From: Actinomycetota bacterium | Lineage (GTDB): Bacteria > Actinomycetota > Acidimicrobiia > Acidimicrobiales > Ilumatobacteraceae | Direction: 5' to 3' | Assembly (NCBI GenBank): GCA_005787035.1 | Contig: SYCI01000150.1 | Coordinates: forward strand, 1-38,750 | Length of the DNA stretch: 38,750 nt | Shown: positions 1,354-3,306 of the stretch, in pieces | How positions within the stretch are numbered: the first letter of the stretch is position 1 | Layout of the letters: each line of letters begins with the position of its first letter | Made by a program: the position numbers and the translations under genes | The notes under the pieces: model-generated | What the model saw: only the letters and a program-made list of their open reading frames with translations | Database searches by the model: none | What the model was told of the DNA's origin: nothing

Positions 1354-3306
1354 ATGTCCGGGGCAACAACTCGTCGACCGACCGTCATCGTCGCCGCCAT
1401 GGCGTCACTCGGAGCCGGCGCCATCCACGGCGGAGCCATCGGCCTGCACGCCGAACATCCACAACTCGCGCGAGTGTTCGTCGTCCTCACTCTCCTGCAG
1501 ATCGGTTGGGCGCTCGTCGCCTTCGCTCACGACGCGCGTTGGATCGCACCGCTCGGCGTCGCAGTGAACGGCCTCGCAGTCGGCGGTTGGCTCATCACGC
1601 GGGTCACGGGTATCGGCTGGATCGACGGTCTCGAGATCAGAGAGAACCCACAACTGGCCGACACTGCGTGCGCGATCCTCGGCGCCGTCGCGGCCGCCAC
1701 GGCACTGGGCATCGTCCTGCTCGGAAAGTCATCCGAACCCGACGTCGAAACCCGAAGGCTTCGACTGCCAGCCGTCGGTATCGCGGCGGTCACGGCACTC
1801 GCCATGTGGAACGGCGCCGGCCATGTGCACAGCCACGGATCGGACGCCCACGCGACGAGCGAAGCCCACGCGCACGGTGACGGAACATCGACCGACGGTC
1901 ACTCGGACGCGAGTGGTGCCAGCGCGAGCGCGGCCGACGCAGCCCACACCGACGGTGCACACGCGCACACGGTCGTGGCCGGTTGGCCCCGCGCCTACGA
2001 CCCGGCCCTTGGTATCGACATTTCGGGGGTTCCCGGGGTCACACCCGAACAAGAGGCGCGTGCCCGAACCCTGATCGAAGACTCCCTGCGCGAACTGCCA
2101 CGTTGGTCCGATGTGGAAACTGCGGTGGCCGAAGGCTGGTTCTCGATCGGCGACAAGTCGACCGGATTCGAGCACTACATCAACCGCCCCCTCATCGAGG
2201 ACGGCAAGTTCCTCGATCCCACCGCACCCGAATCACTCGTGTACCGCGTGGACGGCGACCAACGCACGTTGGTGTCGGCGATGTTCATCGCCAAGACCGG
2301 AGTGCCCATCGACGATCCTTCGCTCACCGACTTCGGCGGCCCTCTCATGCAGTGGCACGCACACGACAATCTCTGCTGGGGTCTCAATGCCGAGGGTCGT
2401 CCGGTGATCCTGGCCCTCACCAATGCCGCCGGTGAGTGTCCGACTGGCACCACCAAGGGCGGTGGCAAGAACGCCATGGTCCACGTGTGGATCGCGCCGC
2501 ACCCGTGCGGCCCCTTCGCCGCCCTCGAAGGTGTGGGGGCCGGACGTGCCTCGGTGTCCGACGCCGAACGAGTCGACATGTGCAATCACGATCACGCGGG
2601 CGACCAAGCAAGTTCTTCGACCACCGGTGCCGCAACGTCACCAACCGCCGACTCCACCACTCCGCCGGCCCAAGTCTCGACCGACCTCGTGGCGGCTTCC
2701 CGCGACTCGGGTGCGGCGCGCATCGACCTGAGTGGGATGGCCGGTGTGTCACCCGAGCAGGAAGCACGCGCCGAGGACTTGGTGTTCGCGACCCGGACGA
2801 CCCTGCCCAAGTTCGGCACCACCGCAGCCGCCGAGGCCGCCGGATTCACGAGCATCGGCGACGGAACCACCGGCTACGAACACTTCATCAACTGGAAGTA
2901 CATCAACGACGAACACGAATTGAACCCCGACTTCCCCGAGAGCCTGGTGTTCCAGGTCGATCCGGCGACCGGAACGAAGAAACTCGTGTCGGCGATGTTC
3001 ATGATGGGCGACGAGTACACACTCGAGAACGTTCCCGACGTCGGTGGCCCACTGACTCAGTGGCACATCCACAACAATCTGTGCTTCAGCCGTGATCCTT
3101 TCGAATTCGGATCCACGCGCGTCGTCGGGGTCACGAGCCCGAATGGCACGTGTGGTTTCGGAATCCGCTTGCGCGAGAACCCGATGATCCACGTGTGGAT
3201 CGTTCCCCACCCGTGCGGGCCGTTCGCAGCTCTCGAAGGAGTCGGGGCCGGGCAGATTCTCGACGGCCAGGAACGTCTCTGCGATCACGACCACGCCGGT
3301 CATTGA
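1354..3306 (+). CDS. Membrane protein of unknown function: N-terminal TM domain, His-rich linker, tandem duplicated His/Cys-rich domain
   Basis: ATG at 1354 with TACATT 6 nt upstream; about 5 TM segments; two repeats each with GGPLxQWHxHxNLC, MxHVWIxPHPCGPFAALEGVGAG and CxHDHAG. Confidence 0.8.
   Translation: MSGATTRRPTVIVAAMASLGAGAIHGGAIGLHAEHPQLARVFVVLTLLQIGWALVAFAHDARWIAPLGVAVNGLAVGGWLITRVTGIGWIDGLEIRENPQLADTACAILGAVAAATALGIVLLGKSSEPDVETRRLRLPAVGIAAVTALAMWNGAGHVHSHGSDAHATSEAHAHGDGTSTDGHSDASGASASAADAAHTDGAHAHTVVAGWPRAYDPALGIDISGVPGVTPEQEARARTLIEDSLRELPRWSDVETAVAEGWFSIGDKSTGFEHYINRPLIEDGKFLDPTAPESLVYRVDGDQRTLVSAMFIAKTGVPIDDPSLTDFGGPLMQWHAHDNLCWGLNAEGRPVILALTNAAGECPTGTTKGGGKNAMVHVWIAPHPCGPFAALEGVGAGRASVSDAERVDMCNHDHAGDQASSSTTGAATSPTADSTTPPAQVSTDLVAASRDSGAARIDLSGMAGVSPEQEARAEDLVFATRTTLPKFGTTAAAEAAGFTSIGDGTTGYEHFINWKYINDEHELNPDFPESLVFQVDPATGTKKLVSAMFMMGDEYTLENVPDVGGPLTQWHIHNNLCFSRDPFEFGSTRVVGVTSPNGTCGFGIRLRENPMIHVWIVPHPCGPFAALEGVGAGQILDGQERLCDHDHAGH

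Follow-up and report, generated by a model that had tools for sequence, protein, structure and literature searches.

Organisation of the locus

The analysed window, a 38,750-nucleotide stretch of a contig from an actinobacterium of the family Ilumatobacteraceae, carries near its start a gene for a membrane protein with two tandem repeats. All of the features of this gene lie on the forward strand and are arranged as follows:

1354..3306, + strand: whole gene, 650 amino acids, with an ATG at 1354 and a stop at 3306; transmembrane (TM) anchor, His-rich linker and two repeats
1354..1800, + strand: unnamed N-terminal multi-TM module; H25, H32, Q49, W79 and D103 are invariant in 17 aligned relatives
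1804..2007, + strand: linker of 68 residues, including 10 His and several HxH
2008..2601, + strand: repeat 1, 198 amino acids, from the alignment with repeat 2
2173, 2356, 2362, 2482, + strand: His codons of repeat 1
2374, 2437, 2506, 2581, + strand: Cys codons of repeat 1
2602..2718, + strand: inter-repeat spacer, rich in Ser, Thr and Ala, without His
2719..3303, + strand: repeat 2, 195 amino acids, from the alignment with repeat 1
2881 (H55), 3064 (H116), 3070 (H118), 3190 (H158), + strand: His codons of repeat 2
3082 (C122), 3151 (C145), 3214 (C166), 3280 (C188), + strand: Cys codons of repeat 2

The membrane location proposed in the initial annotation agrees with the three TM segments found by strict hydropathy and the four to five found by alignment with relatives. 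Over the full length, relatives from the window's genus and family share 49-66% identity with the protein. An inositol-monophosphatase/CysQ-like gene on the same strand (563-1327 of the window) ends 26 bases upstream of the ORF, and co-transcription of the two genes is possible because five other loci have a homologue of the inositol-monophosphatase/CysQ-like gene one or two positions upstream.

An old tandem duplication

The two repeats align end to end, with 93 of 200 positions identical (about 47-50%; BLASTP, 155 bits, E 6e-53) and a local score of 425, where shuffled sequences average 31.8 (sd 5.2, z 75), so the tandem duplication described from the sequence extends throughout. All of the His and Cys motifs quoted in that description are present and aligned between the repeats. 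The claim that each repeat keeps the same His/Cys set is thus correct but incomplete, as one aligned His and one aligned Cys were overlooked: a near-invariant His in EHYIN/EHFIN (codons at 2173 and 2881; H55 in repeat 2) and a Cys in a GxC segment (codons at 2437 and 3151). At the DNA level, 57% of the aligned bases match and the same codon is used at 55% of the identical residues, which indicates that the duplication is old; together with the domain tree, these values reject a recent duplication. In this tree, which covers 113 domains, the ten first repeats all group with seven single-domain proteins in one clade (SH-aLRT 99), and the second repeats are placed elsewhere, grouped with other single-domain proteins. 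The tandem form is present in the window's genus and a few other lineages. On the simplest reading of these sequences, an old duplication was followed by loss of one copy in some proteins; fusion of two paralogues would be an alternative.

An unnamed domain family

Neither the whole protein nor either repeat has a Pfam match at E <= 1, a result that includes the DUF305 (PF03713) profile, and the repeats also lack a match in NCBIfam or PHROGs. The YHYH protein, cupin, cupredoxin and other named Pfam families with His sites are likewise unmatched by the window repeats at E <= 1, and divergent family members give only chance-level matches or a TAT signal. Several candidates were rejected. TTHB210-like proteins (DUF5602, PF18197), which presumably carry an LHVW-type motif, were considered for this reason, and no PF18197 match was found in the window's genome at E <= 1. 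The PDB profile matches 2k9x, 4n5c and 2gsl are weak (E 0.02-1), and the alignments to 2k9x and 2gsl extend into C-terminal His tags. A PADLOC methyltransferase match (E 0.013) is also weak and was taken as chance.

To model the fold, AlphaFold was run on repeat 2 with 50 family sequences (pLDDT 89.8, pTM 0.86); prediction from the single sequence was uninformative (pLDDT 40). In the model, N-terminal helices are followed by short strands, H55 and H158 are located in strands, and the HxH lies immediately before the strand of C122. Foldseek found no match to this model in the PDB (best E 0.67, with query-length TM-scores <=0.17 among the 50 matches listed) or among viral models. Compared with these two collections, the predicted structure suggests a fold without a solved representative. 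The initial annotation recognised no family for the repeat, and the Pfam, NCBIfam, PHROGs and PDB comparisons, by sequence or fold, bear this out; nor did a strong match to a characterised non-metal family, which that annotation had named as grounds for abandoning the metalloprotein assignment, appear in the sequence and fold searches.

Relatives were collected from genomes; with a profile built from 42 domains, the domain is detected in 118 of the 296 sampled genomes of the class (about 40%), with at most 11 matches per genome, and in 31 of the 297 sampled genomes of the phylum, where some matches are partial only. Two genomes from the same family of the class (G355 and G386) have 11 matches each, mostly small lipoprotein-like members. 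No relative was found on viral contigs with the method used. Short hypothetical proteins, predicted to be secreted, from Neorhizobium, Ensifer, Limimaricola and haloarchaea are more remote relatives (profile-profile E 8.6e-18), and the tblastn search for such relatives also matched Gemmatirosa. The alphaproteobacterial and haloarchaeal proteins (P0002-P0006) are homologous across most of the domain and have the LHVW and G-x-F segment in common with it. Unlike the window protein, they lack the HxHxxxC segment and the TM anchor, and their Cys residues are located elsewhere; they too have no Pfam domain. In Neorhizobium galegae (L085:2986-3762), a DUF4242 gene lies 45 bases downstream of the short relative, at this one locus. 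Judged by sequence, the repeat is a genuine, large, unnamed domain family.

Conserved histidines and paired cysteines

Conservation was assessed over 93 non-redundant domains (<70% identity), numbered as in repeat 2. H116, H118 and C122 are present in 93 of 93 domains, and H55 and H158 in 92, so that four His residues, as potential metal ligands, are conserved at 99-100%. The sole exception (L003/L157; G000:C97:24744-25259) is a paralogue with one domain, encoded in the same genome as the window protein, in which H55 and H158 are both gone (Q and R) and the HxHxxxC segment is kept. This joint loss fits a shared site, although in a single lineage only. In the TM module of the same paralogue, Arg replaces a His that is otherwise invariant, and the protein would be well suited as a control with an altered or metal-free site. 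G42, D69, M156, W160 and F169 are also near-invariant across the family. The His of the C-terminal CxHDHAG motif is less conserved (H192, 84%), and the motif is missing in distant members. The remote alphaproteobacterial and haloarchaeal relatives lack the HxH and its Cys pair and keep the LHVW His; in one haloarchaeal member, the H55 equivalent is missing as well.

The Cys residues follow a different pattern. In all 92 parsable domains, exactly one Cys is found between HxHxxxC and MxHVW. For the second pair, C166/C188, both residues are present in 50 domains and both absent in 36, with the domain end possibly cut in the remaining 6. Because the Cys residues occur as coupled pairs in a putatively exported domain, they are read as disulfides and not as ligands, probably C122-C145 and C166-C188. 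Of the His/Cys metal or redox site suggested initially, the invariant His set stands, as four His that include the one overlooked, and the Cys part probably does not; the site is better read as a putative four-His site plus disulfides. The original metalloprotein guess appears reasonable, with metal binding and the identity of the metal both inferred.

Linkers and the anchor module

Proteins that carry the domain have either a module of four to five TM segments with a His-rich linker or an apparent lipoprotein signal with a Met/His-rich linker. The latter type is illustrated by the linker of L144, HDMDHDMDHDMDHDMD, and by stretches such as HDMDHDMDH. His accounts for 8.2% of linker residues versus 3.9% of domain residues, and at least one HxH is found in 80 of 131 linkers; many lipoprotein-like members have few linker His. 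In L149, the domain is preceded by a region that, judged by eye, looks similar to Calx-beta repeats. In five proteins (L155, L139, L158, L159 and L160), the His-rich linker and the domain are separated by an additional conserved segment, C-D-x-x-x-N-x-x-[SA]-Y-[WY], which is possibly another unnamed domain.

The anchor module forms a family of its own, for which Pfam gives no convincing match. Elsewhere in the Actinobacteria, it is found either by itself, followed by a His-rich tail, or in fusions with DUF305 (E 9.8e-51 in L238) or GGDEF. Genes for multicopper oxidases, cupredoxins, P-type ATPases and ArsR-type regulators are among its neighbours there. At 6 of 20 anchor-module loci there are multicopper oxidase, DUF305 or P-type ATPase genes, versus 0 of the 40 domain loci, a difference that is suggestive only (hypergeometric p ~8e-4 by hand), as the queries came from the anchor set and the taxa differ. 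Because the anchor is fused to or beside copper-handling genes elsewhere, copper would be the likeliest metal, with zinc as the alternative. This is the weakest step of the argument: it draws on the anchor module and not on the domain, and the GGDEF fusion indicates that the anchor is not copper-specific. The neighbourhoods of the domain genes give no functional signal, with gene order kept only among close relatives; the neighbours are often metabolic (SDR, enoyl-CoA hydratase), of kinds common in these genomes.

Proposed function and alternative explanations

We propose, at roughly even probability, that the ORF at 1354-3306 encodes a metal-binding protein, with copper as a possible metal, that is exported and tethered to the membrane. 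The domains would be located outside the membrane, with disulfides stiffening each one, and every domain would have a single metal site made up of H55, H116, H118 and H158. Metal may be captured by the flexible His-rich linker, which is Met/His-rich in lipoprotein-like relatives, and exchanged between linker and domains; in this way the protein would buffer or deliver metal at the cell surface. Conservation of the four His, the joint H55/H158 loss and the His-rich linkers support a metal site. The metal-protein reading is weakened by the near-invariance of G42, W160 and M156, as expected also of an enzyme or a purely structural core, and by the His-poor linkers of many lipoprotein-like members. 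The broader proposition, that a new fold with a four-His copper site, a His-containing TM module and His/Met-rich linkers together constitute an undescribed envelope copper-handling system widespread in the class, is rather doubtful.

A serious rival, albeit a somewhat unlikely one, is that the domain is an extracytoplasmic metalloenzyme, a hydrolase or oxidoreductase with a His-ligated metal, whose catalytic unit is doubled in the tandem form. Such an enzyme would account for the near-invariant G42, D69, W160 and F169, and the presence of up to 11 paralogues in one genome would fit substrate diversification. However, no enzyme family or fold was matched, and the His/Met-rich linkers are left unexplained. 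The frequent metabolic neighbours, which could also speak for an enzyme, belong to gene types widespread in these genomes, and they do not keep their positions from one lineage to another. Alternatively, the conserved His may have a structural role or bind a partner or ligand other than a metal, making the domain a metal-free surface binding or sensing module. The remote relatives that lack the HxH and Cys pair, and the one that lacks the H55 equivalent, imply a fold independent of the full four-His set, and the anchor is also joined to GGDEF and other parts. Conservation of the four His at such a level over 93 diverse domains, the loss of two of them together in one paralogue and the His-rich linkers make this alternative unlikely. 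The mixed His/Cys metal or redox site proposed initially draws on C122, which is invariant and follows H118 of the equally invariant HxH by four residues. This site appears very improbable, since each of the 92 parsed domains has exactly one partner Cys and the two residues of the second pair are either both present or both absent, a pattern that points to disulfides, and the Cys residues of exported domains are normally oxidised.

Comparison with known metal-handling systems

The domain is an orphan, without a Pfam or NCBIfam model, a solved relative or a PDB fold match, found in about 40% of the class genomes sampled and with relatives that reach other phyla and archaea. If the metal-binding assignment is true, it would show how abundant environmental actinobacteria handle metal at the cell surface. 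The TM anchor, likewise an orphan module and repeatedly located next to copper genes in other Actinobacteria, would then gain its first functional lead.

His-rich loops are found in metal transporters and metallochaperones of the ZnuA, ZIP, CDF and HypB types. As in these proteins, a flexible, HxH-rich segment adjoins a putative metal site in the window protein. In contrast to them, the loop here joins a TM anchor to an unnamed domain, and no Pfam or NCBIfam homology is observed. The DUF305/CopM-type copper-binding proteins (PF03713) are also comparable, in that they are extracytoplasmic, contain conserved His and Met/His-rich stretches, and, in another actinobacterium (L238), are attached to the same TM module. 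One DUF305 protein, CopM of Synechocystis, is a copper-binding protein with a role in copper resistance (PMC4335983). The two domains are not homologous, however, as the repeat has no PF03713 match.
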